From: a virus
Direction: 5' to 3' (one strand)
Virus record (IMG/VR): IMGVR_UViG_3300045912_000487
Coordinates: 1 to 39,934 of that record
DNA: 39,934 nt
Position numbers and translations under genes: made by a program. Positions 3,973 to 30,259 of the stretch are shown here, one piece after another. Within the stretch, counting starts at the first letter, position 1; each line of letters starts with the position of its first letter. The notes under the pieces are model-generated. The model saw nothing but the letters and a program-made list of their open reading frames with translations. It was not told the DNA's origin and did not search any database.

Positions 3973-5082
3973 ATGGCCCTCCGCAAGCGCTGCAAGCATC
4001 CCCGCGACCGCTGGTCCCGGTGCGGCTGCGCCTGGTGGTGGGATGGCTACGTCGACGGCCGGCGCATCTACCGCAACGTCGGCCCCGACCGGGCCGAGGC
4101 CCGGCGCCTGGCGGCCGAGATCGAGGCCGACCGGCACAACGACCGCGCCCGCCCGATCCCCCGGGACCGCACGCTCGCGGCCGTCGGCGAGCGATGGCTC
4201 GACCACCTGGCCGAGCACGGTCGCCGCCGCCAGACCCTCATCGCCTACCGGACCGCCGCCAACGCGGTCGAGCGCTACTTCGGGCCGACCCGCGACGTGC
4301 GTCTGATCGACGAGGACGAGGTGATGCGCTTCGAGGCCGCCGCCTTCGCCAGCCGCCGCGGGCACGGCCCGGCTCTCCTCATGCAGGCCCTGCGCGGCAT
4401 CCTGAACCACGCCCACCGGGAGCGGATCATCCGCGCGGTGCCCCGCCCTCCGGCCTCGCGCCGGACCATCACGACGAGCCCGGACGTGCGGATGAGCCTG
4501 GCGGAGACCGAGGCCACCATCGCCGCGCTCCGGCCCGAGCACTGGCGCGACCTGGCCGAGGTGATCGTCCTCACGGGCCTGCGCATCGGCGAGGCTCTGG
4601 CGCTTCGGTGGGAGGACGTGGACCCCGCGGCCTGCCGGATCCGGGTCGTCCACTCGGCGGAGCAGCGCGGTCGCACCGACGCCCCGACCAAGACGCCCAA
4701 GAGCGCCCGTAGCCTGCGGGTCGAGCCCGCGGTGATCGACCTCATCCTGGCCCAGCCTCGCACCGAGGAGCGCGTCTTCCCGCGTCGCTACGCCGCGGCC
4801 CTGTCGGCGATCCGGCGGGCGATGATGCGGGCGGGCACCTACCGGCGCGACCGCGGCTGGCACTCCCTCCGGCATCAAAATGCCGCCCTCCGCAATGAAG
4901 CAGGGCAGTCGCTCAGAGACGCTGCGGCGGCGTTGGGCCATGGGGCTCACTTCGCGCAATCGCTTGCGTACGGCTGGGCGGCGGAGTCGAGGGAGGCTCC
5001 ACAACTGTCTGCGCTCAGACAGCCGACACCTCCCGCGGGCGGCGAGGGCCAGGGTTCCCGCGACGGGAACACCGGTCCTTAG
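3973..5082 (+). CDS. int: Tyrosine recombinase integrase
   Basis: 369 residues. Residues 1-40 hold a Cys/His-rich, Trp-rich arm-binding region (CKHP, CGCAWWW). Residues 66-155 look like the SAM-like core-binding domain. The catalytic domain follows, with R204 (TGLRIGEAL), K240/K243, H297-x2-R300 (HSLRH), H323 (LGHG) and the nucleophile Y333. This is the full set for site-specific integration and excision. It lies opposite to the surrounding early genes. The last roughly 22 codons are read antisense through the 3' end of a convergent HNH gene (68-bp overlap), and the tail after Y333 is unusually long at 36 residues. ATG 3973 has a weak GAGG site. Attachment-site cores were not identified. Confidence 0.93.
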   Translation: MALRKRCKHPRDRWSRCGCAWWWDGYVDGRRIYRNVGPDRAEARRLAAEIEADRHNDRARPIPRDRTLAAVGERWLDHLAEHGRRRQTLIAYRTAANAVERYFGPTRDVRLIDEDEVMRFEAAAFASRRGHGPALLMQALRGILNHAHRERIIRAVPRPPASRRTITTSPDVRMSLAETEATIAALRPEHWRDLAEVIVLTGLRIGEALALRWEDVDPAACRIRVVHSAEQRGRTDAPTKTPKSARSLRVEPAVIDLILAQPRTEERVFPRRYAAALSAIRRAMMRAGTYRRDRGWHSLRHQNAALRNEAGQSLRDAAAALGHGAHFAQSLAYGWAAESREAPQLSALRQPTPPAGGEGQGSRDGNTGP

Positions 5083-5479
5083 CCACCATGTCGCGCATGT
5101 TGTCGGTCTGGGTCCCGGTGAAGAGGTGGTCGGGTCGAACGCAGAGCGAGACATCGCAGCGGTGTAGGACGTAGTGGCCTTCGGGAACCGGGCCGACGAA
5201 CATCTCGTAGGCGACCCGATGGGCCTGGTCGGTCTTGCCCCCGCCGACGGCCACCCGCCCGTAGCGGCCGATGCGAGTTTTCCTATCGAGGCCGCCGCGA
5301 GCGCCAGTCCACAACCAGCAGGTCTCAGTCTTGTTGACCTTCGCCATAAACCGCTCACGGGCTCCTTCTGGAAGGTGGGCGCAGTAGGCGCACCGCTTGG
5401 CTCTGCGGTCCTTCGCGCGCCCGCACTCGCAGGGCACTCCCGGTCGATCCACCGTTGTCTCGTGGAGGCGTTTCGCCAT
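5015..5479 (-). CDS. HNH homing-type endonuclease
   Basis: 154 residues. An N-terminal zinc knuckle (CECG ... CAYC) is followed by CWLWTGARGG, GRYGRVAVGG, AHRVAYEMFVGPVPEGHYVL, HRCD and CVRPDHLFTGTQTDNMRDM. This is the HNH_3-type core with H...N...H residues typical of phage free-standing homing nucleases. ATG 5479 follows the excisionase-like stop in a TGATG overlap, so it belongs to the leftward early operon. Its 3' end runs 68 bases into the opposite-strand integrase gene, an odd arrangement that suggests the integrase segment and the HNH gene were joined by recombination. Confidence 0.9.
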   Translation of the reverse strand: MAKRLHETTVDRPGVPCECGRAKDRRAKRCAYCAHLPEGARERFMAKVNKTETCWLWTGARGGLDRKTRIGRYGRVAVGGGKTDQAHRVAYEMFVGPVPEGHYVLHRCDVSLCVRPDHLFTGTQTDNMRDMVAKDRCSRRGNPGPRRPREVSAV

Positions 5480-5718
5480 CAAATCGTCCTCGACATGACC
5501 CGCGGGGGCGGGGCGTACTCCTCGCCCTCCGGCTCGGCACGCTCGGGGCGGCCGGCGTCGAGCCAGGCGTCCACGTCGTCCTGGAGGACCATCCACCGGT
5601 TGCGGACCTTCCGCCCGCCCGGGATCGCACCGCTGGCGAGGGCCGTGCGGGTCCATGCGACCGACTCCCCGATGTATGCGGCGACGTCCGGCACGCGCAT
5701 GAGGCGCCTGGCGCTCAC
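5479..5718 (-). CDS. Excisionase-like helix-turn-helix protein
   Basis: 79 residues from GTG 5718, coupled by GTGA. Residues 6-56 form a winged HTH of the excisionase/HTH_17 type: LMRVPDVAAYIGESVAWTRT, ALASGAIPGGRKVRNRWMVL, then QDDVDAWLDAG. Proteins of this type bend DNA at attachment sites to steer the integrase towards excision, or act as small regulators. Its place next to the HNH gene and less than 700 bp from the 3' end of the integrase fits recombination directionality. A Pro/Glu-rich tail follows. Confidence 0.8.
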   Translation of the reverse strand: MSARRLMRVPDVAAYIGESVAWTRTALASGAIPGGRKVRNRWMVLQDDVDAWLDAGRPERAEPEGEEYAPPPRVMSRTI

Positions 5719-5828
5719 CGCCCCCTCCACACGTCCACCGCCGCCCACACGACCAGCCCGACGAACCCGGCCACCACGATCCCCCCGGCGATCCCGATGG
5801 TCCACATGAGGGCGTAGAGGAGGGTCAC
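5715..5828 (-). CDS. Micro-membrane protein (37 aa)
   Basis: GTG at 5828 overlaps the upstream stop (GTGA) and its own stop overlaps the excisionase-like start. The sequence VTLLYALMWTIGIAGGIVVA runs on through GFVGLVVWAAVDVW as one or two hydrophobic helices and ends in WRGR. It is probably a small inner-membrane peptide. No family was recognised. Confidence 0.6.
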   Translation of the reverse strand: MTLLYALMWTIGIAGGIVVAGFVGLVVWAAVDVWRGR

Positions 5829-6148
5829 CGGTCCTCCCGCCGCTCGAAGTCGCCCGACGCGATCCGCCTGAGCGCCAGCTCCACGGCCTCGCGGAGGTGA
5901 TCGCGAGCCGCCTCGGCCTCGTCCAGCCGGTCGCGCAGGTGGCCCTCGAACCACTCCGCCGCGCCGAGCAGGCGCAGCAACTCCCCCTGCGCCTCCTCCA
6001 GGTCGCGGACGCGCTGCTCGGCCCGCAGGGCGCGCTCGCGCCATCCGTCCAGAACGATGTGGCCGACCGTGCGGAACCCGGGCTCCCGCTCCCGGAATGC
6101 CCGGTGCGGGTCGTCCGGAGCGCCCGGGTACTCCACGACGGCCGCCAT
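5825..6148 (-). CDS. Coiled-coil hypothetical protein (107 aa)
   Basis: Starts at ATG 6148, in a TGATG overlap with the preceding gene. The first 30 residues (EYPGAPDDPHRAFREREPGF) are polar. Residues 35-98 form a long charged helix (RALRAEQRVRDLEEAQGELL ... LRDRLDEAEAARDHLREAVE) with clear heptad spacing, so a dimeric coiled coil is likely. It sits between zinc-ribbon and membrane peptides in the early operon. Function unknown. Confidence 0.7.
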   Translation of the reverse strand: MAAVVEYPGAPDDPHRAFREREPGFRTVGHIVLDGWRERALRAEQRVRDLEEAQGELLRLLGAAEWFEGHLRDRLDEAEAARDHLREAVELALRRIASGDFERREDR

Positions 6149-6423
6149 CACCCCTCCACGTCCACGACGGTCTCCACGACCCGCCGTCCGCCGCACGCCC
6201 CGCACAGGACCGGCAGGTAGTGGGGCGGGCGCGAGCGGTCCTCCCGGGACATGTCGTGCGCCTCGCGGGGGTAGACCTCGTCCCAGGTCATCCCCTGCTG
6301 CCAGCACCGCCAGCACGGGGCGACCTCGACCGTCACCGGAAGGCGCGCGCGCCGTGCCCGCCAGGCCCGCCATGAGCGGTAGGCCAGGGGGTCGTGGCGC
6401 ACGCGCAGGGCCATGACGCTCAC
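6148..6423 (-). CDS. Zinc-ribbon protein (91 aa)
   Basis: GTG 6423 overlaps the stop of the homing-repeat gene (GTGA). A basic N-terminus (YRSWRAWRARRARLP) is followed by two cysteine knuckles, CWRC and CGAC, about 35 residues apart, which should bind one zinc ion. The segment between them (MTWDEVYPREAHDM) is acidic. Such small phage zinc ribbons often bind nucleic acid or host RNA polymerase. The function here is not known. A second in-frame start, MALRVRHD, lies three codons on. Confidence 0.7.
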   Translation of the reverse strand: MSVMALRVRHDPLAYRSWRAWRARRARLPVTVEVAPCWRCWQQGMTWDEVYPREAHDMSREDRSRPPHYLPVLCGACGGRRVVETVVDVEG

Positions 6424-6923
6424 GAGTCCGGCCTCTTGACGGTGCGGGTGGGGTCTCCCTCCACCTCCCCCGGGCCGTGCCTCCGCGGGCGGGACGGGCG
6501 CGGGACCATCCCCGCGGCCGCAAGCCCCGCCCGCCACGATCCGAAGCGCTGCTGCACGGTCGTCGCCGGGGGGTGCGACTCGCCCGCCCGGTGCCACTCG
6601 GTCATCGAGGGCGGCCCACCGTGGACGATCGCCCACTCGGTCAGGGCCTCGACGATCCGCTCGCACGTCCAGTAGACCCCGAACCGACCGTCGCCGCGCC
6701 GGGACGGCTTGGGGTCGGGCGGAAGCTCCGCGACCTCCACCGGCTCGGGTGACAGCCGCCGCAGCGGCACGTCCCCCTGCCAGCCGCAGTCGCACACGAT
6801 CCGGGCGACCGGGGCCTTCGGGTAGAGGTGGACGATCCGGCCCCACCGGCGGCACGGGTGGTCCGCGGCGGCCCGTGCGCGGGCGCCCAGGATGAGGCGG
6901 GCCTGGTCGAGGGCGGTGCTCAC
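6420..6923 (-). CDS. Homing-endonuclease-associated repeat protein
   Basis: 167 residues from GTG 6923. Residues 85-145 match the repeat found beside many phage HNH enzymes: WTCERIVEALTEWAIVHGG, PSMTEWHRAG, then TTVQQRFGSWRAGLAAAGM. This helical repeat binds DNA as an array. An N-terminal Cys/His cluster (HPCRRWG ... CDCGW) may bind zinc. There is no HNH or other nuclease core, so this is either a DNA-binding regulator or the remains of a homing enzyme. It lies directly downstream of the SSB-like gene. Confidence 0.75.
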   Translation of the reverse strand: MSTALDQARLILGARARAAADHPCRRWGRIVHLYPKAPVARIVCDCGWQGDVPLRRLSPEPVEVAELPPDPKPSRRGDGRFGVYWTCERIVEALTEWAIVHGGPPSMTEWHRAGESHPPATTVQQRFGSWRAGLAAAGMVPRPSRPRRHGPGEVEGDPTRTVKRPDS

Positions 6924-6927
6924 GGCC

Positions 6928-7359
6928 TCAGAAGGGGATGTCGTCGTCGCCCGTGCGCGGTGCCGGGGCGGGGCCGGCCGCACCCTCGGCCTCGTCCCAC
7001 GCCTTCACCCGCGCCCGGAACTTGCCGTCGTACTCCTCGTGGCGGACCGTGGCTTTGATGACCCGGCCGACGAGCTGGCGCGCCTCCAGGCGGAAGGGGC
7101 CGTCGGGGACCTTGAGCCCGGCGCACTGGAGCTTCCAGCGCGCCACCCCGAGCGCCTTGTCGGAGATCCAGATCGTGTCCCAGAGCAGGCGCCCGTCGTA
7201 CTCGCCGCCCATGATCTTGAGGACGACCTCGACCCCTGGAGTCCCGGTCGAGGCGACCTTCTCCTTGGCCTCGTCGATCCGGCACCGGTACTCGCCCTCG
7301 GCGACCGGGCCGCCCCCGGGGGTCGCCTCCACGCCCGTGAAGTCCACGTCGATGCCCAT
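6928..7359 (-). CDS. Single-stranded DNA-binding-like protein
   Basis: 143 residues. The core looks like an OB-type beta barrel: GEYRCRIDEAKEKV, VEVVLKIMGGEYDGRLLWDT and LVGRVIKATVRHEEYDGKFR. It ends in a Pro/Ala linker and the acidic tip DDDIPF, the hallmark by which SSB recruits replication and repair partners. It resembles the DUF669/phage SSB-like group. ATG 7359 directly abuts the Sak4-like stop, so the two are made together and probably work together on single strands during recombination. Confidence 0.8.
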   Translation of the reverse strand: MGIDVDFTGVEATPGGGPVAEGEYRCRIDEAKEKVASTGTPGVEVVLKIMGGEYDGRLLWDTIWISDKALGVARWKLQCAGLKVPDGPFRLEARQLVGRVIKATVRHEEYDGKFRARVKAWDEAEGAAGPAPAPRTGDDDIPF

Positions 7360-8082
7360 TCAGGCGGCCTTCCTCTCGGCGGCCTTCGGGGGCGCGTCAG
7401 GCTTGGTGGCCGTGGCGATCCACTCGGTCAGGTCGACCGTGCGGTGCACGCCCAGGCGCCCGGAGCGGTCCTTGCCGTGGCGACCGCCGGCGGTCACGAG
7501 CTGGGCCTCGTAGTCGACCCGCCCGTCGTCGTGCGTCACGAGGCCGGTGTACGCGACGACGTCCACCTGCGCCATGAGCAGGCCCGGGAGCTTCTTGCCG
7601 CCGGTCACGGGCTGGCGCATGGTCTCGCCCGTGGTGCCGTCGACCACGACCTCCTCGTGGCAGACGAGCACGACGTTCAGGGGCAGGTCGCGCAGGGCGC
7701 GCACGAAGCGCTCCAGGAGGGTGTTGACGTCGCCCCAGTTCTGGAGCGTCGGCCGGTCCCCCCCGATCTCCTCGAGGAGGATCCGGTAGGTCTCGCCGAC
7801 CGTGTCGAGGACGACGGTCTTCTCGCCGCCCTTGCCCTCGCGCAGGTAGAGGTACGCCTCGTCGAGGACGCCCTTGCCCGTGACCGCGACCTCGCGGACC
7901 TTGTCGGCGCCGTGGATCTCGCGGGCCTTGCGCAGCGCCCCCGGTCCCTCGGCGTTCAGGACCAGCACCGGCCCCGGGGCGCTCGTCGCCCCGACGGTCT
8001 TGCCGGTCCCCGAGGGGCCGTACAGGAGGATGTTCATCGTCGGCGCCATGGCCGACGGGCTGACGAACTGGAGTGGACTCAT
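7360..8082 (-). CDS. Sak4-like RecA-fold recombination ATPase
   Basis: 240 residues. Walker A GPSGTGKT at 22-29 and Walker B VVLD at 90-93 define a RecA-type core, with a glutamate/histidine turn (VLVCHEEVV) further on. The size, single domain and neighbours (SSB-like gene downstream, exonuclease-like gene upstream) match phage Sak4 proteins, which anneal or exchange single strands with SSB help. ATG 8082 overlaps the nuclease stop (ATGA). The last 20 residues are a Lys/Ala/Pro tail. A generic AAA_24 ATPase is the other reading, but context favours recombination. Confidence 0.85.
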   Translation of the reverse strand: MSPLQFVSPSAMAPTMNILLYGPSGTGKTVGATSAPGPVLVLNAEGPGALRKAREIHGADKVREVAVTGKGVLDEAYLYLREGKGGEKTVVLDTVGETYRILLEEIGGDRPTLQNWGDVNTLLERFVRALRDLPLNVVLVCHEEVVVDGTTGETMRQPVTGGKKLPGLLMAQVDVVAYTGLVTHDDGRVDYEAQLVTAGGRHGKDRSGRLGVHRTVDLTEWIATATKPDAPPKAAERKAA

Positions 8083-9194
8083 GCGATCACCTCGGCTCGG
8101 TCTCTCTTGGCCGGGACGCGCACGTAGAGCGCGTCGACCAGCCCGGCGTCGTTCGGGTCGGGGCAGATCCCCGAGAAGGCGCAGCCCCGGCAGTGGGCGG
8201 GGTGCGGCTCTCGCACCGGCATGCGGCCGGCTTCGAGCTCATGCACCCGCTGGGCGAGGGCGACCAGCTCACGGCCCGTCTCGGCCAGCTCGCCCGGGCG
8301 GAAGATGATGCGCTGGCGCTGCTGCCATCGGCGGGACCGGAACGCCTCCAGGGCCTCGGGGTCCGGGTTGAAGCCCGCCTCCCGGCACGCGGCCAGGTAG
8401 TCCTCGGCGGTGCAGAGCTGGCGCTTGTCCGTCGAGGGCCGGCCGTTCTGATTGATCCGGGGTGGCCGGGGAGCCTCGGCCAGGCGCTCGTCGTAGATCA
8501 CCCCGGCGGGCTCGCGGCCCGTGCGCTGCCACCAGCCCCAGGCGTAGCGGCGGCCCTGGCGGTCGAGGGCGAGCTGCTCGAGCGCCGACAGCTCGCCGCG
8601 GAGCTTGAACTCCACGATCCACGCCCGGCCGTCGATGTCGACGTGCACCCCGTCCAGGAACCCGCGCAGGCGGTAGCGGTTCGAGCGCCGCCCGCCCCGG
8701 CGGCTCGGCAGGGCGACCTCGAACTCCATCTCGCGGTCCGTGATGGGCATCGGCTCGGCCGTGGCCGCGTAGTGGGCGAGGATCGCCTCCAGGCGGGCGG
8801 CCATCTGCTCGTGCTCTGCCGGGTCGTACACGCCCGCCTCGCGCTGCTCGTCGGCGTCCTCTTCCAGGGCCTCGTGCATGGCCTGGCGCGCCAGGTGGAG
8901 GGCGTCGATGCGACCGGCGGCGGCATGCCAGGCGGCGACGGCCTTGCCCCACGCGCGCCCGTCGCGCATGCGGGAGGTGGCGGTCTTGGGCCGCAGAGCC
9001 GTCCCGGCCAGGTACCCGCCGTAGAGGAAGTCCCAGCGGGCCTCGCAGGTCGTGAGCGCCCGCAGCTCGCTGTGGCTCAGGGAGCGCAGGGTGGGGGCGC
9101 CGTCGATGGCGGCCACCTCGCTGCCCCCGGACGAGGCGGTGCGGGGGAGTCCGTCGCACCCCGTGGCCTCCGGTCGAACGGCTGCCGGGATCAC
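8079..9194 (-). CDS. Cas4/AddB-like Fe-S PD-(D/E)XK exonuclease
   Basis: 371 residues. Nuclease motifs: H90 in the first helix region, D181 (GFLDGVHVD), E195-x-K197 (WIVEFKLRG), then a glutamine-bearing YAWGWW helix. Cysteines C50 and C335-x2-C338-x5-C344 (CRGCAFSGIC) match the split four-Cys iron-sulphur site of AddB and Cas4 nucleases. Such enzymes resect DNA ends to give single strands for an annealing or recombinase protein, here the Sak4-like ATPase directly downstream. GTG 9194 overlaps the upstream stop (GTGA). The first 30 residues look disordered, so a later start is possible. Confidence 0.88.
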   Translation of the reverse strand: MIPAAVRPEATGCDGLPRTASSGGSEVAAIDGAPTLRSLSHSELRALTTCEARWDFLYGGYLAGTALRPKTATSRMRDGRAWGKAVAAWHAAAGRIDALHLARQAMHEALEEDADEQREAGVYDPAEHEQMAARLEAILAHYAATAEPMPITDREMEFEVALPSRRGGRRSNRYRLRGFLDGVHVDIDGRAWIVEFKLRGELSALEQLALDRQGRRYAWGWWQRTGREPAGVIYDERLAEAPRPPRINQNGRPSTDKRQLCTAEDYLAACREAGFNPDPEALEAFRSRRWQQRQRIIFRPGELAETGRELVALAQRVHELEAGRMPVREPHPAHCRGCAFSGICPDPNDAGLVDALYVRVPAKRDRAEVIA

Positions 9195-9349
9195 ACCAAC
9201 CTCCCCACCACCCAGATCACCGCCAGCCCGGCCGACAGGCCGACCAGCAGGAGCGCCCCGGTCGGCACGCGGCGGCGGTAGGGCGGGTGGCCGTCGTAGA
9301 TCGGCAGGTGCCGGACGGACGGGAACGGGCCGTAGGGTCCGGACGCCAT
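9191..9349 (-). CDS. Small single-pass membrane protein (52 aa)
   Basis: ATG 9349 lies in a TGATG overlap with the previous small gene. Residues 1-29 are polar and aromatic-rich (GPYGPFPSVRHLPIYDGHPP), and residues 30-52 are one hydrophobic helix (GALLLVGLSAGLAVIWVVG). A short arginine patch, YRRRV, precedes the helix and predicts an inside N-terminus. Function unknown. Confidence 0.65.
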   Translation of the reverse strand: MASGPYGPFPSVRHLPIYDGHPPYRRRVPTGALLLVGLSAGLAVIWVVGRLV

Positions 9350-9441
9350 CACCGCCCCCTCCCCAGCCACCGGCCGGTGGCGAGCCCGACGAGCGGGGAC
9401 GCCGCGACCCAGGCGATGAGGCCGAGCTGCCAGGCGGTCAC
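9349..9441 (-). CDS. Micro-membrane protein (30 aa)
   Basis: GTG 9441 overlaps the upstream stop (GTGA), and its own stop overlaps the next start (TGATG). The 30 residues form one hydrophobic helix (WQLGLIAWVAASPLVGLATG) with a basic RWLGRGR end. It is paired with a second membrane peptide just downstream. Its existence rests on the overlap geometry and composition. Confidence 0.55.
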   Translation of the reverse strand: MTAWQLGLIAWVAASPLVGLATGRWLGRGR

Positions 9442-9665
9442 AGCTCCTTCTCCCACTCCGCCTGCCGCCAGCCCCACTCGGCCCTCGCGCACTCCCGGCA
9501 CAGGGCCTTCCCCTCGTCCGGGTCGAGGCCGGCACCACACAGGTGGCACGCGCAGGTGCAGGTCGCCCCGGCGGCGCAAGGGCCGCACAGGTGCTGCGAG
9601 GCGGCGCGGTCGGCGCGGTCGGCCTCGTAGTCGCGGGCGGCGAGGTCGAGGACGTCCTCGGTCAC
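9438..9665 (-). CDS. Cys-rich zinc-binding protein (75 aa)
   Basis: 75 residues from GTG 9665. The C-terminal two thirds carry a dense cysteine set: CGPC, CTCAC, HLCGAG and CREC, enough for two zinc ions. A helical, charged N-terminus (VTEDVLDLAARDYEADRADR) and a Trp-rich tail (EWGWRQAEWEKEL) flank it. It may be a small nucleic-acid-binding protein. No family was recognised. Confidence 0.7.
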   Translation of the reverse strand: MTEDVLDLAARDYEADRADRAASQHLCGPCAAGATCTCACHLCGAGLDPDEGKALCRECARAEWGWRQAEWEKEL

Positions 9666-10207
9666 GGCCGCACCTCGATCATCCGGTCGAGCAGCAGCAG
9701 CGCGGGCTGCTGGAGCGCCCGCTTGGTCGGGTCGAGCCGCTCCCCGGTGGCGTCCCCGGCGGCGGCCATGGCGGCGGCCCTGGCGGCGGCCAAGCTCGGC
9801 TGCGCCTCGCGTGCCCGCTCCGCGGAGTCGAGCGCTGCCAGGCGCTCCAGGGTGTGCGCGTGCTCGTCCAGGCCGGCCAGGCGCAGCCAGGCGGGCGCGC
9901 ACTCGCGCACCAGCCAGTCCGTCGCCATCCACGCGCGCCGCGCGGCGACCTCCGGCCCGTGGTTGGTCCCGACGATCCTGGTGACGTAGGGCAGCAGTAT
10001 CTGCCGGTCCTCGTCGTCCATCGCGTCGTTCCACTCGCGGCAGAAGGCGCCGATCACCGGGCAGACGCACTCGGGGTGGTCCGTCCAGGGCTCGCCAGCC
10101 ACCCACGCGGCCGCCTCGACCATGCAGGCGGCGAACTCGCCGTTGGGCGGCCCGTGCTTGCCCCGTTCGAGACGCAGATCGGGGGGGAGGGTCCGGGTCG
10201 TCGTCAC
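9662..10207 (-). CDS. Early-operon hypothetical protein (181 aa)
   Basis: 181 residues from GTG 10207. It has a distinctive conserved-looking middle: FAACMVEAAAWVAGEPWTDH, PECVCPVIGAFCREWND, ILLPYVTRIVGTNHGPEVA. Three cysteines lie close together near residue 45-57. The C-terminal half is alanine-rich and helical (ARAAAMAAAGDATG). The first part resembles proteins often found in actinophage early regions, but I cannot name a function. It is coupled on both sides. Confidence 0.75.
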   Translation of the reverse strand: MTTTRTLPPDLRLERGKHGPPNGEFAACMVEAAAWVAGEPWTDHPECVCPVIGAFCREWNDAMDDEDRQILLPYVTRIVGTNHGPEVAARRAWMATDWLVRECAPAWLRLAGLDEHAHTLERLAALDSAERAREAQPSLAAARAAAMAAAGDATGERLDPTKRALQQPALLLLDRMIEVRP

Positions 10208-10512
10208 GCCGCCCTCCTCTCGGGCAGCTCGTCCCAGGCCCGCACGCGCGACTCGGCGGCGAGCAGGGCCCCGAGCTCCATCTGCCGGGCCAGCGCCTCG
10301 GCCCGGCGGCGGACCTCGGCGGGCTCCGCGTAGTCGGGCCACTCGGGCAGCAGGGCCTCTCGGATGGCGCGGTGGAACCTCATGTGCAGGTGATGGGCCG
10401 CGCGATAGAACGCCTCGCGGGCGATCCCGGTCGGCTGGCGGTACGCCCTGGCCCCCGCCTCGTGGTACGCCTCGGCACGGCCGTAGGCGCGGATGGCGTC
10501 GGCGGGGGTCAT
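10204..10512 (-). CDS. Small helical hypothetical protein (102 aa)
   Basis: Starts at ATG 10512 in an ATGA overlap. The 102 residues are helical, rich in Ala, Arg and Tyr (AIRAYGRAEAYHEAGARAYR, REAFYRAAHHLHMRFHRAIR), with many histidines. No membrane segment or metal-binding spacing stands out. No family was recognised. Confidence 0.7.
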   Translation of the reverse strand: MTPADAIRAYGRAEAYHEAGARAYRQPTGIAREAFYRAAHHLHMRFHRAIREALLPEWPDYAEPAEVRRRAEALARQMELGALLAAESRVRAWDELPERRAA

Positions 10513-11183
10513 CCGGTCACCGCCGGCGGCTTGCGGGCGATGGTCGTCTCCGGCTGGCACCCCGCGATCCACCAGCGCCCGTTGACACGGACCACGGGCC
10601 GGGCGATGCGCGGCTTGCTCACCCACCGCGCGCCGCGCGGACAGGTCAGGCGCGGGCGCGGCTGCACCCGCACGCACCCGAACCGGACCAGCCACCGCCG
10701 CCCGGCGCCGACTCGCGTCAGGTACGCGCAATCGATCGGCCGGGCGGCAGGCGGCTCCGCGGTGCGCGGCGGCCGTGGCGCCGGTGCCGCGGGCTCCGGC
10801 GGAGAGACGGGCGCCGGAGGGGTCTGGGGGGCCGGGGGCAGGGGCGCGCAGGGCACGTCGGCCGCCGCCGACCACGTCTCACCCCCGACCGCGTACGCGC
10901 CGACCAGGTGGCCGGTGCCGCGGGGCAGGGCGAACGTGACCGACGACGCGGGCCCGGTGAATCGGTGCGAGCCGATGGCCACGGTGTCCCCGTCCAGGAT
11001 GGCCAGGTATGAGCCCGAGATCGCGCGGCCCGGGACGAAGCCCTCTAGGGCCAGCGTGGCCTGCGGGCGGGCCGGGTCGGCGCAGTCGACGGACAGGCCG
11101 ACGTTCGCGCTCGCCTGCTCGGCGAACACGGCCGCGCCGAGGACGCCGGCGGCCATGAGGGCGATGGCGGTGCGGTCCCTCAT
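10509..11183 (-). CDS. Secreted Cys-containing protein
   Basis: 224 residues. A signal peptide (RTAIALMAAGVLGAAVFA) ends in ASA, with likely cleavage after residue 26. The mature part has a beta-rich domain with two cysteines, then a Pro/Ala linker around 115-145, then a second basic domain with four cysteines and Trp residues (RWLVRFGC, RGARWV, GRWWIAGC). The cysteines probably pair outside the cell. A secreted protein in an early operon is unusual and may act on the host surface or alter its interactions. The ATG and ATGA overlaps at both ends support the boundaries. Confidence 0.75.
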   Translation of the reverse strand: MRDRTAIALMAAGVLGAAVFAEQASANVGLSVDCADPARPQATLALEGFVPGRAISGSYLAILDGDTVAIGSHRFTGPASSVTFALPRGTGHLVGAYAVGGETWSAAADVPCAPLPPAPQTPPAPVSPPEPAAPAPRPPRTAEPPAARPIDCAYLTRVGAGRRWLVRFGCVRVQPRPRLTCPRGARWVSKPRIARPVVRVNGRWWIAGCQPETTIARKPPAVTG

Positions 11184-11476
11184 GCCGCCACCTGCGCGGG
11201 AGCCCCGGGAGGCGGGGTCTGCGGGGAGCGACGACGCTCGCGCGCCGCGCGGGCGGCGCAGAGGCTCACGAAGAGCTTACCGCCCTCGCCCTGCTCGTCG
11301 CGGTGGGCGAGGTCCTCGCGAAGCTGGACCAGGTCGTCCCACACGTCGCGGGCGACGCGCTGGAGGTGGTACTGCGAGTTCAGGGCCTGCTCGACGCGCC
11401 CGAGCATCTCGATCCGCGCGAGCTGGGCCTCGTCGAGCGCGTCGTCGAGCTTGGAGTGCTTCGGCCTGGTGGCCAT
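11180..11476 (-). CDS. Helical hypothetical protein (98 aa)
   Basis: Starts at ATG 11476 behind a strong GGGAGG site and stops in an ATGA overlap with the secreted-protein gene. Residues 8-70 are a long charged helix (KLDDALDEAQLARIEMLGRV, DVWDDLVQLREDLAHRDEQG). The C-terminus is Arg-, Pro- and Ala-rich. It is the second gene of the early leftward transcript, 30 bases after the Cro-like gene, with an inverted repeat between them. Function unknown. Confidence 0.75.
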   Translation of the reverse strand: MATRPKHSKLDDALDEAQLARIEMLGRVEQALNSQYHLQRVARDVWDDLVQLREDLAHRDEQGEGGKLFVSLCAARAARERRRSPQTPPPGAPAQVAA

Positions 11477-11495
11477 GCGGTAACCTCCCTGTGCG

Positions 11496-11535
11496 GCCCC
11501 ACTCCCTCAGCGCCGGGAAGCGGCGGGAGTGGGGC
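11496..11535. repeat. 11-bp perfect inverted repeat at end of Cro-like gene
   Basis: GCCCCACTCCC (11496-11506) pairs exactly with GGGAGTGGGGC (11525-11535) around an 18-base loop that includes the stop codon of the XRE gene at 11507. On the + strand it is followed by GGTTCTTTT, a terminator-like end. On the minus strand, the direction of the operon, no U-run follows. It could be an attenuator, an RNA-processing site or a terminator of antisense transcripts. Confidence 0.6.
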
Positions 11536-11785
11536 GGTTCTTTTGCTTCCGGGCCTCGCGGTCCCCGGTACCGTTCGAGTCGTGTGTGAACAGCGAGTCG
11601 ATCGACACCCCGTAGAGGCGGGCCAACCGCACGAGCGTGTCTGCGCGCGGCGACCACTTCCCGACCTCGGCGTTCTGCAACGTGGCGCGGGAGATCCCAG
11701 CGCGCTCGGCGGCTTCGACCTGGCTCAGCCCGCACGCCATGCGTGCGCGCCGCAGAAGGTCGGGTGAAATCGCCATGCTCGTCAT
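11507..11785 (-). CDS. Cro-like XRE-family repressor
   Basis: 92 residues. The HTH runs from about 8 to 62: ISPDLLRRARMACGLSQVEA, AERAGISRATLQNAEVGKWS, then TLVRLARLYGVSIDSLF. This is a classic XRE fold with the recognition helix ISRATLQN. The C-terminus is a basic tail (RKQKNRPTPAASRR). ATG 11785 lies 7 bases after a -10 box and has no Shine-Dalgarno, so a leaderless mRNA is likely; ATG 11776 is the alternative start. It is the first gene of the early operon and faces a two-HTH repressor gene across shared operators, the arrangement of a lysis/lysogeny switch. Confidence 0.88.
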   Translation of the reverse strand: MTSMAISPDLLRRARMACGLSQVEAAERAGISRATLQNAEVGKWSPRADTLVRLARLYGVSIDSLFTHDSNGTGDREARKQKNRPTPAASRR

Positions 11786-11792
11786 GTCGAGC

Positions 11793-11821
11793 AACCTAGG
11801 CCATAAAACCTCGGCTGTCAA
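11793..11821 (-). promoter_or_regulatory. Leftward early promoter (leaderless)
   Basis: On the minus strand, TTGACA at 11821-11816, a 17-bp spacer, and TAGGTT at 11798-11793. The expected start site coincides with ATG 11785, so the transcript would be leaderless. The spacer contains most of operator copy one, so repressor binding there would block it. It would drive the Cro-like gene and the whole early operon. Confidence 0.65.
11796..11814. promoter_or_regulatory. Operator candidate 1
   Basis: CTAGGCCATAAAACCTCGG at 11796-11814 is a direct repeat of operator 2, matching at 15 of 19 positions. Its dyad is degenerate compared with copy 2. It lies across the -10 and spacer of the leftward promoter, as expected of a repressor site. 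Confidence 0.6.
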
Positions 11822-11825
11822 GAAG

Positions 11826-11844
11826 CTAGGCCGAGAAATCTCGG
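11826..11844. promoter_or_regulatory. Operator candidate 2 with perfect palindrome
   Basis: CTAGGCCGAGAAATCTCGG at 11826-11844 contains the perfect inverted repeat CCGAGA-AA-TCTCGG (11831-11844). It sits exactly 30 bp from operator 1, close to three helical turns, so repressors could bind both on the same face of the DNA. It lies just upstream of the leftward -35. Confidence 0.65.
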
Positions 11845-11868
11845 TCGCGCTCGAACGGCCGATGGACT

Positions 11869-11874
11869 TAGGCT
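11869..11874 (+). promoter_or_regulatory. Candidate -10 box of rightward repressor gene
   Basis: TAGGCT lies 8 bases before ATG 11883. No Shine-Dalgarno precedes that ATG and no consensus -35 is visible. It mirrors the spacing of the leftward promoter (TAGGTT, 7 bases before its ATG), so a leaderless repressor mRNA is plausible. Confidence 0.4.
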
Positions 11875-11882
11875 TCGCCCCG

Positions 11883-12413
11883 ATGACGACGTTCGGCGAA
11901 CGGGTCAAGGCGCTGCGCAACGAGCGCGGCTGGACCCAGGAGGAACTCGCTCACCGCAGCGGGCTCTCGCGCGCCACGATTCAGAACCTCGAGGCAAGCA
12001 AGCATGCCCCGCGGCACGACTCGTTGCAGCGGCTCAGCGGCGCGTTCGATCTCAGCATCGCCGAGATCGTCAACGGCACGGTCTCCGAGGGGCCGCGGAG
12101 CACCGGCGCCGCTCCGAACTACGCCGCCTACTTCGCGGAGAACCTCGCCCGCATCATCGCGGAGCGCGATCTTTCCCAGCACTGGTTGGCGGCGCGGACC
12201 GGAATCCACTTCACGCACATCTCAGACTACTCCCGCGGCTCCCGCCGACCGGGGCTCAACAACGCCAAGCGCATCTCGGACGTGTTGAACGTCAGCCTGG
12301 ACTCGATGCTCCGTCCGGCGGCGGCGGCTCCGGGTGCGGCACCAGACGTAGATGAGCACCTGGCTGACCTGCTCTCGGACGAGCCGCCCGCGGAAGGGGA
12401 GGGGTCTCGCTAA
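11883..12413 (+). CDS. Repressor with two tandem XRE helix-turn-helix domains
   Basis: 176 residues. Domain one (about 3-60): FGERVKALRNERGWTQEELA, HRSGLSRATIQNLEASKHAP, then LSGAFDLSIAEIV. Domain two (about 80-142): FAENLARIIAERDLSQHWLA, ARTGIHFTHISDYSRGSRRP, then ISDVLNVSLDSML. An acidic tail ends the protein. Two DNA-binding domains in one chain could bind both half-sites or both operators as a monomer. It lacks a LexA/S24 peptidase domain, so induction would not be by RecA self-cleavage. ATG 11883 is preferred and ATG 11862 is possible. It is the only long rightward gene at the switch and is the likely lysogeny repressor. Confidence 0.85.
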   Translation: MTTFGERVKALRNERGWTQEELAHRSGLSRATIQNLEASKHAPRHDSLQRLSGAFDLSIAEIVNGTVSEGPRSTGAAPNYAAYFAENLARIIAERDLSQHWLAARTGIHFTHISDYSRGSRRPGLNNAKRISDVLNVSLDSMLRPAAAAPGAAPDVDEHLADLLSDEPPAEGEGSR

Positions 12414-12564
12414 GCGCCCGCCGTGCCCGGTCGGCGTAGGGGATGTCCCCGTGCCCCATGTGTTCCAGCGCATCGAGTTGGGCGGCGAGGAACGCCCGGA
12501 GGGCGACCTTGCAGGCATCCTCGACGGCGGCCCTGGCGTACACCTGCCTCGGATCGACCGCCAC
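12292..12564 (-). CDS. Possible small protein overlapping the repressor gene end
   Basis: About 90 residues from GTG 12564, behind a GAGAGGGGGCGGGG stretch. Residues 3-52 look like real helical protein (PRQVYARAAVEDACKVALRA, AAQLDALEHMGHGDIPYADR). The last roughly 30 residues are read antisense through the repressor gene and are Pro/Arg-rich. Either the protein has a meaningless tail or the true gene was cut by recombination. No family was recognised. Confidence 0.45.
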   Translation of the reverse strand: MAVDPRQVYARAAVEDACKVALRAFLAAQLDALEHMGHGDIPYADRARRALSETPPLPRAARPRAGQPGAHLRLVPHPEPPPPDGASSPG

Positions 12565-12714
12565 CCCCCGCCCCCTCTCGCCGCTCCCGCGGGATCGTAG
12601 CCGCCGGTCCGGCGTGCGTCGATCCCGCGGCCTGCGGGGTGTCACATCGGCCCGTGCGGGATCAAGCCCGGGCGGGCACCTGCCGATGACCACACGTTGG
12701 TCGAGGAGGCCAGC

Positions 12715-12804
12715 ATGGTCCACCAGATCCTCTCCCTCATGGGCGACCTGATCGCCGTCATGGTCCCGGACCCGCCCTGGGTCCTGGTGCGCGACTGGTT
12801 CTAG
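12715..12804 (+). CDS. 29-residue rightward peptide before terminator
   Basis: ATG 12715 follows TCGAGGAGGCCAGC, a good Shine-Dalgarno, and the frame ends at TAG 12802-12804, seven bases before a strong hairpin. The peptide MVHQILSLMGDLIAVMVPDP then PPWVLVRDWF is hydrophobic and may sit at a membrane. The 150 bases upstream (12565-12714) hold no other gene, and no clear promoter was seen. It is either a tiny prophage-expressed gene or the end of a longer lost gene. Confidence 0.45.
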   Translation: MVHQILSLMGDLIAVMVPDPPWVLVRDWF

Positions 12805-12811
12805 CCCGCGC

Positions 12812-12841
12812 GACGGCCCCGGGGGTGGTGCCGGGGCCGTC
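12812..12841. terminator. Strong GC hairpin between switch and late block
   Basis: GACGGCCCCGG (12812-12822) pairs perfectly with CCGGGGCCGTC (12831-12841) around an 8-base loop. It lies between the rightward micro-gene and the last leftward late gene (stop at 12847), so it can serve both directions. There is no T-run, as is common for terminators in high-GC genomes. Confidence 0.75.
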
Positions 12842-12846
12842 GTCGT

Positions 12847-12927
12847 TCAGCCGACGTTGATCACGCCGGCCAGGATGAGGACGAGCACCACGACGCCGCC
12901 CAGGACGAACATGGCCCAGCCGGGCAC
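12847..12927 (-). CDS. Micro-membrane protein (26 aa) at end of late operon
   Basis: GTG 12927 overlaps the holin-like stop (TAGTG). The product VPGWAMFVLGGVVVLVLILA then GVINVG is a single hydrophobic helix. As the last late gene, next to a holin candidate and endolysin, it may tune lysis timing, but this is inferred only from position. Confidence 0.55.
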   Translation of the reverse strand: MPGWAMFVLGGVVVLVLILAGVINVG

Positions 12928-13139
12928 TACCGCTCCTCGTCCGGGAAGGGCTCCGGCACGCCCAGCCCGTAGCCGCGCAGCTCCCTGACCGCGTAGGCGA
13001 CGAGCACGGGGATCGCGGCGCCGACGATCGGCCCGAACGCCCCGAACGTGCCCCAGTCGAAGTCGGCCGCCCACGCGGCGACGCTCGCGAGGATGACGCC
13101 CGCCAGCGCGAGCGCGGCGGCCTTGACCTTGGTGAACAT
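12927..13139 (-). CDS. Holin-like two-helix membrane protein
   Basis: 70 residues. Hydrophobic segments at 7-25 (AAALALAGVILASVAAWAA) and 35-52 (FGPIVGAAIPVLVAYAV) are joined by a short acidic turn, and the protein ends in an acidic, polar tail (PEPFPDEER). Size, topology and position right after the endolysin gene are those of small class II or III holins, which open the inner membrane to release the endolysin. An RBS-like GGAGG precedes ATG 13139. Confidence 0.7.
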   Translation of the reverse strand: MFTKVKAAALALAGVILASVAAWAADFDWGTFGAFGPIVGAAIPVLVAYAVRELRGYGLGVPEPFPDEER

Positions 13140-13148
13140 CCGGTCCTC

Positions 13149-13832
13149 CTAGTCGCGGTAGGCCCGGACGATCCGGGCCATGATGATGTCGCCGGGGCAT
13201 GCGGTCGCGTTCCCCGGCACCTCCCGGTGGCCGCGGAGCGAGCCGCCCCGGATGTCGTACTCCTCCATCAGCTCGTCGAAGGACGCCTGCTGGTGGTAGG
13301 TGATCGGCCCGTTGGTCACGAAGACCACGCCGAGCGTGTCGTTCGCGCCGCGGGCGTGCGCGCCCTCGGTCACTGAGACCTTCGTCGCGTGGCGGCCGAG
13401 GTAGCGGTTCCCTGAGGCGAAGATGCCGACGTGGTAGCCGATGTCCGACCAGCCCTTGACGTCCTGGTGATACGCCTGGAACGAGCGCCACACGGCCTTC
13501 TCCAGCTCGACCACCTTAGGGTCGACCGCGCCGAGCTTGCGCAGCGCCTTGCGGTACGCCTTGATCGCCCGGTTGTAGTCACGGATGACAGCCGAGATGC
13601 GCCGGCGGCGCTCGGCCTCCTCGGGGGTGCGGTGCGGACGGCGCCAGATCGCGTACCACTTGGCGCCGGGTCGCTTGGGCTTGGTCAGCTTGCGCCGCTC
13701 GGCGCGCCCGATCGGGGTCAGCTCAGACGCCGAGTAGTGGATCGTCGCCCGGCCGCCGTGGTTGGCAACCCCGCCGGTCGAGCGGGGAGACCGCAGGCCA
13801 GCCGCCTCGCGGCTATAGGTGGTGTAGCTCAT
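13149..13832 (-). CDS. Endolysin, N-acetylmuramoyl-L-alanine amidase (PGRP/Amidase_2)
   Basis: 227 residues. Zinc ligands: H32 (ATIHYSAS), H202 (GHRE) and C212 (TACPGD). The core motif WSDIGYHVGIF and the LGVVFVTNGP strand are typical of the family. It cuts the bond between muramic acid and L-alanine in peptidoglycan. Between the first His and the core is an unusual, strongly basic insertion of roughly 80 residues (RRPGAKWYAIWRR, RDYNRAIKAYRKALRKLG). ATG 13832 is chosen because it overlaps the preceding stop (ATGA). No signal peptide is present, so it needs the holin to reach its target. Confidence 0.9.
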   Translation of the reverse strand: MSYTTYSREAAGLRSPRSTGGVANHGGRATIHYSASELTPIGRAERRKLTKPKRPGAKWYAIWRRPHRTPEEAERRRRISAVIRDYNRAIKAYRKALRKLGAVDPKVVELEKAVWRSFQAYHQDVKGWSDIGYHVGIFASGNRYLGRHATKVSVTEGAHARGANDTLGVVFVTNGPITYHQQASFDELMEEYDIRGGSLRGHREVPGNATACPGDIIMARIVRAYRD

Positions 13833-14128
13833 GGGCCCTCCTCGATCTGTGGACATGTCTGGGCCAGCTCACCCCGCAGAACGCGCGCCTCGTCCAGCAG
13901 GCGATCGATCAGGCCCTCGATGCCGACGGCGACCGGCTCTTGGATCACGCCCTCGTAGTAGTCGATCTGGGCGTGGTTCCACGCGGCCAGGTCGCACACG
14001 AGGTCGCGGTTGGCCTGGGCGGTGTCCGCGAGCTGGACTTGGTGCAGCACGACCAGGGCGAGGATCAGGAGCACCAGGACGGCGAGCGCCCAGTGGACGA
14101 CGCGCGAGGGGACGGTGATGTGCCTCAC
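13829..14128 (-). CDS. Membrane-anchored lysis-region protein (99 aa)
   Basis: GTG 14128, coupled by GTGA. One transmembrane helix near residues 12-32 (WALAVLVLLILALVVLHQVQ) is followed by a soluble domain with two cysteines and helical content (DLVCDLAAWNHAQIDYYEGV, GLIDRLLDEARVLRGELAQT). The layout, an N-terminal anchor with a periplasmic helical part, resembles spanin-like or Rz-like proteins. The sequence is not diagnostic, and if the host is an actinomycete a spanin would be unexpected. Confidence 0.6.
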   Translation of the reverse strand: MRHITVPSRVVHWALAVLVLLILALVVLHQVQLADTAQANRDLVCDLAAWNHAQIDYYEGVIQEPVAVGIEGLIDRLLDEARVLRGELAQTCPQIEEGP

Positions 14129-14496
14129 GTCGGACCGCCCGCCAGGAGGGCCACGAGCATCCCCACCAGCCCTCCCGCCGCCGCCAGTGCGGCGACGGTT
14201 CCCGCGATCACCTTCCACGTGAGCCTGATCCCGCCCTGCTCACCCGAGCGCGTGAGGCGGGCGTCGTCGAGGTCGTCCACGATGCTCTCGATCGCGTCGA
14301 CCTTGCGCATCACGTGGTCGAGCTTGGTGCCCATGACGGCGACCGCGGTGACCAGGCCCTCGCGCTCGATCGTCCGCCGCCAGGCGTCGACGCCCCGGCG
14401 CCACTCGTCGACCGTCCCGCGCCAGCCCTCGATGCGGGCCAGGCGTTCCTCGACGCCCGGGTAGGGCGGCTCGTGCCGGGGAGGATCGCCGGTCAT
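14125..14496 (-). CDS. XhlA-like coiled-coil membrane protein
   Basis: 123 residues. A Pro-rich start is followed by a long helical region with Trp at regular spacing ([20 protein letters not shown]), then [20 protein letters not shown], and a C-terminal membrane helix ([20 protein letters not shown]). This coiled coil plus C-terminal anchor matches haemolysin XhlA-type proteins that partner holins. ATG 14496 overlaps the hydrolase stop. It probably takes part in lysis with the genes just downstream. Confidence 0.65.
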
Positions 14497-15581
14497 CCCG
14501 GCCTCCGCACGGCGATGTAGGAGGATCGGGCCGGCACGATCTGCACCCGGCCGCCGGTGCGCGGCGCCTCGATCACCTTCCCGTTGCCGACGTACATCTG
14601 GACGTGGCCGGTGCTCGGGAAGAGCAGGTCCCCCGGGCGCCAGGCGCCGCGGTTCTTGGTGTTCACCGCCTGGCCGACCTTGATCTGGTCGTACGTGGTG
14701 CGCGGCAGCTTCACCCCCGCCTTCGCCCAGGCGTACTGGACGAGCGATGAGCAGTCGAAGCCGATCGTGTTGGCCCCCTGGGCGAACCCGCGGGTCGGAC
14801 CGGACGGCGTCCCGCCGCCCCACGAGTACGGCACCCCGAGCTGTCCCCTGGCCGCGTTGATGACCTGGGCCGCGCTCGGGTCGGCGGGGCGGCCGGCCTG
14901 GGTCAGGCCGTCGAGGGCCGCCTGGCGTCCGGCGGGCGCGGGAGCTCCTGCCCGGCGCTGCTTGCGGGCCGCCTCCTGCTGGGCCGAGAGGTCGCGGCGG
15001 GCGCTGGCGAGACCGAGCAGCGTGGTCGGGCTCACCCCCTCGCGCGTCCCGGTCTCCTCGATCGCCTGAATCGCCGCCATCTGGAAGGCGCGGGGGTCGG
15101 CCGTAGCGGCTGGCCCGGCGGGGCTTGACGTTTTCGGCAAGCCGGAGGCCTGGCGGGGACGCCGGGGCCGGGCGGTGGCGGGACCTCCGGCGCCGCGGTA
15201 GTCCTTGGCGTATTGGAGCACCTTCGGCACGTAGGCTCGCGTCTCGGCGTAGGGCGGGATGCCGCCGTATCTGCGGACCGCGCCGGGGCCGGCGTTGTAG
15301 GCGGCCAGGGCCTTGCGCACGTCGCCACCGAAGGCGTCGAGCTGCTGGCGCAGGTAGCGCGCCCCGCCGCGGAGGTTCTGCGCCGGGTCCCAGACGTTGC
15401 GCACGCCCAGTCCGCGCGCGGTGGCAGGCATGAGCTGGGCGAGCCCCTGGGCGCCGGCGGGCGACCCGGCGCGCGGGTTCCAGCCGGACTCGGCCCGGAC
15501 GAGGCCGAGGAACACGGGAACCGGCACGCCCTCCTGGCGGGCGATGTTGGTGGCGAGGCGCTGGAGGTTGGGCGGGGCCAT
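14493..15581 (-). CDS. Bifunctional lytic transglycosylase / NlpC-P60 peptidase
   Basis: 362 residues. The N-terminal SLT domain has catalytic E31 (RAESGWNP), [12 protein letters not shown] and [12 protein letters not shown]. The C-terminal NlpC/P60 domain has C277 in [12 protein letters not shown] and H326 in [10 protein letters not shown]. The two join through a Pro/Ala linker of about 110 residues. One domain cuts the glycan strand, the other the peptide. Such enzymes are usually virion-borne and open the wall during DNA entry; the location at the end of the ejection-protein genes fits. The linker carries the 20-bp repeat at 15123-15142, read as LPKTSS (residues 149-154). Confidence 0.9.
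15123..15142 (-). repeat. 20-bp repeat, copy 1 (inside transglycosylase linker)
   Basis: Exact copy of GCTTGACGTTTTCGGCAAGC on the + strand. The arms GCTTG/CAAGC and CG/CG flank a TTTT centre with one mismatched pair. It is identical to the copies at 32656-32675 and 39759-39778. Here it falls in the interdomain linker and encodes LPKTSS on the minus strand. Confidence 0.9.
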
Positions 15582-27992: not shown

Positions 27993-28273
27993 CAGTCCTC
28001 CGGTGGGATGAGCGCCAGGGCGTCGGCGGCGCGGCTGTGGATCTCCGGGATCGCGCGGAAGGCGGCCTCGTTGACGATCCCGGTGAGGTGCCCGACGAGA
28101 TCGCCGCGCACGTTCTCCCAGGCCGCCAGGCGCGCGAGGAGGGCCTGGCGCTCCACCTCCGCCTCGCGCAGGCGCATGTCGGCGCCGTCGGCCTCGGTGC
28201 GGGCGAGCTGGGCGCGGGCGCTAGCCTCGTCGCGCTCGGCCCGGAGCCGATCGATGATCTCGTCCGGGGTCAC
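27992..28273 (-). CDS. Coiled-coil protein upstream of tail spike (93 aa)
   Basis: GTG 28273 overlaps the stop of the repeat protein (GTGA), and its own stop overlaps the spike start (TGATG). Residues 4-50 form one charged coil (IIDRLRAERDEASARAQLAR, LREAEVERQALLARLAAWEN). The rest is helical (LVGHLTGIVNEAAFRAIPEI). It may be a tail-fibre assembly helper given its place beside spike genes. No family was recognised. Confidence 0.65.
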   Translation of the reverse strand: MTPDEIIDRLRAERDEASARAQLARTEADGADMRLREAEVERQALLARLAAWENVRGDLVGHLTGIVNEAAFRAIPEIHSRAADALALIPPED

Positions 28274-29367
28274 TTGTACCCCAGGTGGAAGATGACCTCG
28301 TTCGCCGCGACCGCCCCGGTGTCCGAGTCGGCGGCGCCCGTGGTGATCGCCGAGGCGATGCCAGTGCCGAAGGCGAAGCCGTGCGCGTCGGAGAGGATGC
28401 GGCCGGCGCCGGCCGTGTTGCCCGGGATCATCAGCGTCATCACCGGGGTGCTCGTGCCGACCGTCGGCGCCGTGGCGAGGTTGTAGAGCTTGAGGTAGCG
28501 GGGCGCGGCGTTCGTGTTGGTGGCGTCGATGACGTACACCTGGCCCGCCGAGGCCTTCACGGACTGTGCGTTGGTCGAGGCGTCCGAGATGCGCCGGTGG
28601 ATCAGGAGGCCGCCGGAGGTGACGGGCGCAAGGTTCGCCGCGACCGTGCCGTCCACCGTGAGCGAGCCGCCGTTGTCGGTGACCGGCCACGGGCCCGTGC
28701 CCGCGTTGGCGGTGACCGTGCCATCCACGGTGAGCGACCCGGCCCCGTCGTCCACGCTGAGCGTCCCGCCGTTGTCGTCGACCGAGAGCACCCCGGTGGA
28801 GTCCGAGGCGACGGTCACCCGCAGCGCCCCGGCCTCGACCCCGCCGCCCGTTACCGCGAGCGCCGCGTTGTCGACGGTGAGGCTTCCGCCGTTGTCGTCG
28901 ACGCTGAGGCTCCCGCCTGCGTCGGAGACCGGCTGGGTGGTGGTGCCGGTCGGATCGGTGCGGACGGGGGCCGAGGGGGTGCCGCCGGCCACCGGGCCGC
29001 CCGAGGCCGGGAGCGCGAGGCCGAGCATGGTGGTGCTGACGGTCCCCGCGCCGGTGTCGTAGTCGGCGCTGGCCGCCCCCGAGACGCCGACCGTTCCGTC
29101 GACGGTGAGGCTCCCGCCGCCGTCGGTGACCGAGACGGTGCCGTCGACGGTCAGCGACCCCCCGCCGTCCTGGACGGTGACCGTGCCGTCGACCGTGAGC
29201 GAGCCGCCCGCGTCGCCGACCGGCAGCGGATCGGTGGTGGAGGTGTCGACGGCCGACCCGTCCACGCCGTGCACCACCTTGACCCGCTGGTGGTGCACCC
29301 CGGCGATGTCGTCGGTCGCCCAGGTGGCCCCACCCGCGCCCGGATCCGAGGTGACGTTGTCGGCCAA
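28270..29367 (-). CDS. Repeat-rich fibre-like virion protein
   Basis: 365 residues from TTG 29367. Residues 50-250 hold a roughly 12-residue unit, GGSLTVDGTV(x)2, repeated about eight times, with variants GGSLSVDDN and GGTLSVDD. It would build a beta-roll or shaft. Residues 255-365 are a compact beta domain (RYLKLYNLATAPTVGTSTPV, SDAHGFAFGTGIASAITTGA) that ends in VIFHLGYK, resembling small head or tail decoration domains. The DNA is correspondingly repetitive. Likely a fibre or decoration protein; the number of units may vary between relatives. Confidence 0.75.
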   Translation of the reverse strand: MADNVTSDPGAGGATWATDDIAGVHHQRVKVVHGVDGSAVDTSTTDPLPVGDAGGSLTVDGTVTVQDGGGSLTVDGTVSVTDGGGSLTVDGTVGVSGAASADYDTGAGTVSTTMLGLALPASGGPVAGGTPSAPVRTDPTGTTTQPVSDAGGSLSVDDNGGSLTVDNAALAVTGGGVEAGALRVTVASDSTGVLSVDDNGGTLSVDDGAGSLTVDGTVTANAGTGPWPVTDNGGSLTVDGTVAANLAPVTSGGLLIHRRISDASTNAQSVKASAGQVYVIDATNTNAAPRYLKLYNLATAPTVGTSTPVMTLMIPGNTAGAGRILSDAHGFAFGTGIASAITTGAADSDTGAVAANEVIFHLGYK

Positions 29368-29914: not shown

Positions 29915-30259
29915 CTAGGCCGCGTAGACGAGCAGCGCCCGGAGGGTCACTGCCGACAGGTTGGTGGTGGCGCCGACCTCGGTGTTCCCGGCCGTGTACG
30001 CCTTGATCTTGGGAGCCGTGGCGCTCCCGTCCCAGTCGTAGAACCGGGTGCCGTCCTGGCGGGTCATGAGCAGCACGCCCTTCAGCTCCTTGCCCCGCAC
30101 GTCCGAGGTCGGGAGCGTCAGGGTGTCCCCGCCGGTGGCGTAGCTGTTCGACATCGTGAAGCTCACCGGGACGATGAGCGCGTGGATGCCGCCCAGGAAC
30201 TGCGGGCTCGACTTCGACCCGCCGCCGCCGATGAGGGCAGGGGTTCCGGTGGCGCCCAT
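29915..30259 (-). CDS. Small beta virion protein, paralogue B
   Basis: 114 residues from ATG 30259 (TGATG overlap). Conserved with paralogue A: SNSYATGGDT, ELKGVLL, YDWDGSATAPKIKAY, TNLSAVTLRALLVY. A glycine-rich start (GGGGSKSS) replaces A's charged start, and A has extra residues before its TNLSA block. The pair arose by duplication. A and B may form alternating parts of one surface structure. Confidence 0.75.
   Translation of the reverse strand: MGATGTPALIGGGGSKSSPQFLGGIHALIVPVSFTMSNSYATGGDTLTLPTSDVRGKELKGVLLMTRQDGTRFYDWDGSATAPKIKAYTAGNTEVGATTNLSAVTLRALLVYAA

Follow-up and report, generated by a model that had tools for sequence, protein, structure and literature searches.

The two-gene, shared-operator design of the cI-Cro switch is described in sections of PMC6550527. 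The same source, in its passages on cluster A mycobacteriophages, reports 20-30 binding sites (stoperators) distributed genome-wide and no evidence of a Cro analogue. A literature search brought up no phage repressors with two HTH domains and operators, but this is no proof of their absence. A layout similar to the one considered here is present in all four Brevibacillus phage records that were read (Abouo, Davies, Jimmer1 and Osiris), which are near-identical in this region (mean column identity 98%) and thus represent one case rather than four. There, a protein with two HTH_3 domains (shown for Abouo, gp50) is encoded divergently from the single-HTH gp51; the intergenic region carries TTGACA-N17-TATTAT for the leftward gene, with one 15-mer inside the spacer and a second, inverted one 29-30 bp away, beyond the -35 box. 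We know of no experimental test of the Abouo-type regulator pair.

Here we analyse a viral record of 39,934 nt (the window, i.e. the whole stretch of DNA studied), in which a 97-bp intergenic region (11786-11882) is flanked by the ATG of a minus-strand regulator gene at 11785 and that of a plus-strand one at 11883. We consider it likely that a temperate GC-rich phage uses this region as its immunity/lysogeny switch, made up of a tandem-HTH repressor, a Cro-like opponent and duplicated operators. The features are collected in Table 1.

Table 1. Positions of the regulators, candidate control elements and associated genes
Feature	Position	Strand	Basis or remarks
Tyrosine integrase	3973..5082	+	PF00589 3.5e-10, phrog_1 1.4e-39
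Excisionase-like HTH_17 protein, far end of leftward run	5479..5730	-	Pfam/PHROG-type matches
Rest of leftward run, 15 called ORFs, gaps ≤74 nt	5479..11476	-	Gene calls and domain matches
Cro-like regulator, 92 aa, one HTH_3 (7.5e-15)	11507..11785	-	Recognition helix SRATLQN
Duplication unit 1 (~30 bp, head-to-tail)	11785..11814		Gapped alignment to unit 2
Putative leftward early promoter, TTGACA-N17-TAGGTT	11793..11821	-	Exact-pattern search; box order 11821-11793
Operator candidate, copy 1	11796..11814	+	CTAGGCCATAAAACCTCGG; 22-nt form begins at 11793
Duplication unit 2	11816..11844		Contains TTGACA box of leftward promoter (as TGTCAA) at 11816-11821
Operator candidate, copy 2	11826..11844	+	CTAGGCCGAGAAATCTCGG; 22-nt form begins at 11823
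Perfect 14-bp palindrome CCGAGA-AA-TCTCGG	11831..11844		Inside copy 2
Repressor candidate, 176 aa, two HTH_3	11883..12413	+	Helices SRATIQN (HTH1), HFTHISD (HTH2)

Gene context

The two regulator genes are divergent, as in cI/Cro-type switches, and the other early genes start within 30 nt behind the leftward one. The leftward run includes genes for PD-(D/E)XK exonuclease, Sak4-like, SSB-like and excisionase-like proteins, and the integrase gene lies on the opposite strand; the late genes (terminase, portal, capsid and endolysin) occupy about 13-39.7 kb. The claim of the sequence-only reading that a Cro-like gene heads the early operon thus agrees with the gene order, which fits a temperate phage. 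With a GC content of 0.50-0.64 in the 50-nt windows between 11750 and 11899, against mostly about 0.70 around it, the switch stretch is the local GC minimum of the part profiled. As to the ends of the window, the end check printed no terminal direct repeat, a primase-like gene lies at most 2 bases from the left end and the terminase gene is near the right end, so that the record could represent either a circle cut open or a fragment. The strongest tandem repeats of the window, with periods of 27 and 45 nt (28861-28924 and 29089-29211), both fall within one called gene, 28270-29367.

The two regulators

The rightward protein, which would have 183 aa if started at the alternative ATG at 11862, matches HTH_3 at 2.8e-26 over the whole protein. 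Its Pfam matches are to HTH families only, its best PHROG stretches also fall in the HTH parts and the S24 peptidase domain was not matched; a cleavable repressor of the lambda type was rejected on the latter ground. An AlphaFold2 model of the 176-aa protein, computed without an alignment, had a mean pLDDT of 56.9 and was good for HTH1 only, and therefore it was not used for the mutual placement of the two HTH domains.

Over 57 domain positions, the leftward protein is identical to HTH1 at 25 and to HTH2 at 16, while HTH1 and HTH2 agree at 12. With recognition-helix boundaries assigned by position, six of seven residues are common to the leftward protein and HTH1. As a background we took 29 other HTH_3 domains from six records, mostly from Clostridia and Brevibacillus phages and not from GC-rich hosts: at least six of seven helix residues are shared in 4 of 406 pairs, three of which are identical TKGLISR copies, so that among distinct helices the count is 1 of 351 pairs; the helix SRATIQN itself reaches at most 4/7 against these domains. 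Since such identity is rare in the background, HTH1 and the leftward protein probably recognise the same half-site. A shared helix is the pattern to be expected if both regulators compete for the same sites.

The repeat pair

Two 19-bp copies lie exactly 30 bp apart between the divergent HTH genes, as first noticed from the letters alone. They are identical at 15 of 19 positions, and without gaps the repeat reaches 22 nt (identity 17/22). The conserved part is asymmetric: CTAGGCC is kept 7/7, mostly outside the dyad of copy 2, followed by AAA and CTCGG, whereas the left half of the dyad takes three of the six substitutions and is not conserved. The pattern CTAGGCC-N3-AAA-N-CTCGG occurs only twice in the 39,934-base record, 30 bp start-to-start. 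When the 19-mer was searched over the whole window with up to three mismatches, the two matches were copies 1 and 2; the same loose search on shuffles gave a mean of 0.93 matches, with at least two in 22 of 100. A gapped alignment, with a single gap, extends the repeat to two adjacent units of about 30 bp with 23 of 30 columns identical, which is a better description than two isolated 19-mers and makes a head-to-tail duplication the simplest presumed origin. Tandem Repeats Finder at score 30 did not list this duplication, which is visible by gapped alignment alone. The further proposal that the two copies occupy one DNA face does not hold: 30 bp corresponds to 2.86 turns at 10.5 bp per turn, i.e. 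about 51 degrees off.

The perfect palindrome that had been pointed out in copy 2 is indeed there, but it is equalled in 218 of 2000 shuffles and in 371 of 1982 window stretches and so is not significant alone, and copy 1 keeps only its right half.

How exceptional the repeat itself appears depends on the comparison. Dinucleotide shuffles of the 97 bp equal its ungapped score 4 times in 2000, and among 1982 other 97-nt stretches of the window 139 do so; when rare bases carry more weight, the score is matched by 46 of 3964 stretches, at eight separate places, and the gapped score is reached by none of 500 shuffles and by 23 of 397 other stretches. The record is GC-rich and repeat-bearing, and other stretches of this length can equal the score. 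Independent support for the repeat pair is provided by CTAG, which occurs 10 times in the window against about 98 expected from base composition (i.e. about tenfold rarer). Six of these sites are TAG stops of called ORFs (one such ORF being doubtful), and two of the four away from such stops fall in the repeat copies; the Poisson chance of two CTAG within 97 bp is 2e-4.

Promoters

A search for exact TTGACA-N16-18-TANNNT found one match in the window, against 0.04 expected from shuffles, and this match is the putative leftward early promoter. Copy 1 in its 19-nt form extends over 16 of the 17 bases between the boxes and over half of the -10 box, in agreement with the overlap originally proposed, and its 22-nt form covers the whole -10 box; repeated candidate operators thus lie between the genes and over the early promoter, as in cI/Cro-type regions, as far as can be judged by sequence. 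A stricter promoter scan did not list this promoter, because TAGGTT matches TATAAT at just 3/6 positions. Judging from the promoter position, transcription would start at or adjoining the ATG at 11785 and would yield a nearly leaderless mRNA.

For the rightward gene, promoter scans of the window gave weak candidates only and no credible promoter; by eye, TAGGCT can be read at 11870-11875, without a -35 box. Of the reciprocal promoters of a cI/Cro-type region, then, a putative leftward one and no credible rightward one were found. The idea of a minimal cI/cro-like region is partly supported: the divergent HTH_3 genes, the early operon, the integrase, the promoter under copy 1 and the common helix agree with it, but the single DNA face, the palindrome taken alone and a rightward promoter find no support.

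The other full TTGACA box of the window with a TANNNT partner (TACTGT, at 19-nt spacing) is found upstream of the plus-strand genes 1494-1715 and 1719-2255, within the stretch 1429-2255. Gene 1719-2255 has excisionase/MerR-like HTH matches and may form, with 1494-1715, a second lysogeny-side unit.

Interpretation and alternatives

In the reading that we favour, the prophage repressor would be encoded by the rightward gene, with its tandem HTHs, and a Cro-like lytic regulator by the leftward gene, with its single HTH; the head-to-tail duplicated segment of about 30 bp between them would provide two operators. Repressor bound to copy 1, on the spacer and the -10 box, would exclude polymerase and keep the early operon (exonuclease, Sak4, SSB and Xis) silent. 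Copy 2, just upstream of the -35 box, could serve for cooperative or competing binding, and it probably also controls transcription of the repressor's own gene. Since its helix nearly equals that of the repressor's first HTH, the Cro-like protein would be expected to compete with the repressor for the same half-sites.

A variant of this scheme, which we regard as unlikely, is that the tandem-HTH repressor acts as a one-chain 'dimer' on an asymmetric site of 19-22 bp, while the inner palindrome of copy 2 is occupied by a true dimer of the Cro-like protein. HTH1 would then read the CCGAG side and HTH2 the CTAGG side; the binding of the two regulators would overlap but differ in symmetry, so that copy 2 would be common to both and copy 1 reserved for the repressor. 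The asymmetry of the conserved repeat, the unconserved left half of the dyad and the unlikeness of the two HTH domains leave room for such a repressor, and, if true, the locus would show how one operator can serve both a dimeric Cro and a repressor that works as a single chain. The same dyad could instead be the whole operator, of the 434 type and present in copy 2 only, copy 1 being a degenerate remnant of a promoter duplication. The dyad is after all perfect in copy 2 and reduced to its right half in copy 1, and units duplicated head-to-tail may resemble each other by descent alone. But the best-kept part of the repeat, CTAGGCC, lies mostly outside the dyad, whose left half carries three of the six substitutions, shuffled sequences equal the dyad readily (the 218 of 2000 above), and it is copy 1 that is positioned to block the promoter; a single-operator switch therefore seems quite unlikely.

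Another possibility is that the roles are reversed or different, the leftward single-HTH protein being a repressor that controls its own gene and the tandem-HTH protein having an activating or accessory regulatory part. Annotated repressors are among the best relatives of the leftward protein in the databases, and its gene adjoins the best promoter. However, the rightward protein likewise matches repressors or regulators in PHROG and by tblastn, and with early genes within 30 nt the leftward gene would be silenced or expressed together with them, which makes such an exchange of roles improbable. As to chance, or plain duplication of no regulatory role, 139 of 1982 other stretches do equal the ungapped score; but the repeat sits in the only intergenic region between divergent HTH genes, is enriched in CTAG and overlaps the sole exact promoter match of the window, and we find this explanation very improbable.

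Search for relatives

Six protein queries (repressor, Cro-like protein, exonuclease, Sak4-like protein, capsid and endolysin) and two operator patterns found no contig with a homologous switch among viral contigs, nor was one found in genome contigs with the capsid alignment and the repressor as queries. As these searches found no relative spanning the switch, there is no phylogenetic footprint or test of conservation. In two contigs (L005 and L006) the similarity is confined to the terminase-capsid (packaging) side, with a capsid identity of 79-80%; five others (L003, L004 and L007-L009) gave distant single-domain HTH matches at 33-38% identity and were left out of footprinting. When 9000-15000 was compared with phages by distant blastn, no match resulted; megablast of 1-25000 returned three records with one 41-base stretch in common, and the capsid finds no better match in the phage collection than one of 28% identity. 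As a switch that is compact and open to experiment, the locus represents a lineage of uncultured phages that has no close relatives in culture.

One gene has changed place: 30259-30807 follows the capsid gene in the window, while its relatives (L005:8472-8939 and L006:5187-5654) precede the capsid gene and the match of 33056-33856.

Comparison with known systems

Taken together, the region is probably a real but ordinary cI/Cro-like switch. With lambda and 434 it shares divergent regulators, candidate operators over the early promoter, a Cro-like gene placed first in the early operon and matching recognition helices of the two regulators. The half-site spacing of the 14-bp dyad presumably resembles that of 434-type operators, although a 14-bp dyad in every site, as in the 434 type, is not what we find, copy 2 having it perfect and copy 1 its right half only. 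Unlike lambda CI, the repressor candidate is HTH-only by its matches, with no S24 cleavage domain, and we take its second HTH to occupy the place of the dimerisation/cleavage domain of CI. The Cro-like gene differs from those of lambda and 434 in its predicted nearly leaderless mRNA. There are two operator copies here against the tripartite operators of lambda (as given in sections of PMC6550527).

The Brevibacillus phages differ in that their 15-mers are inverted and of unrelated sequence, whereas the repeats here are direct; protein identity is only 26-27%, and their own regulators have no common helices (1/7 with either HTH). The parallel therefore supports the arrangement, by analogy, and not the particular sequences. 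With only two sites in the whole record, a stoperator system of the cluster A (L5) type was rejected, and the second domain here is a plain HTH_3. The likeness to the cluster A repressor of TipsytheTRex/L5 consists in two DNA-binding domains per polypeptide and asymmetric sites (from sections of PMC9283540), and TipsytheTRex is, in the same sections, the precedent for a one-chain repressor on an asymmetric site. The locus is probably a new example of a well-known switch type, with a repressor candidate built of two HTH domains.
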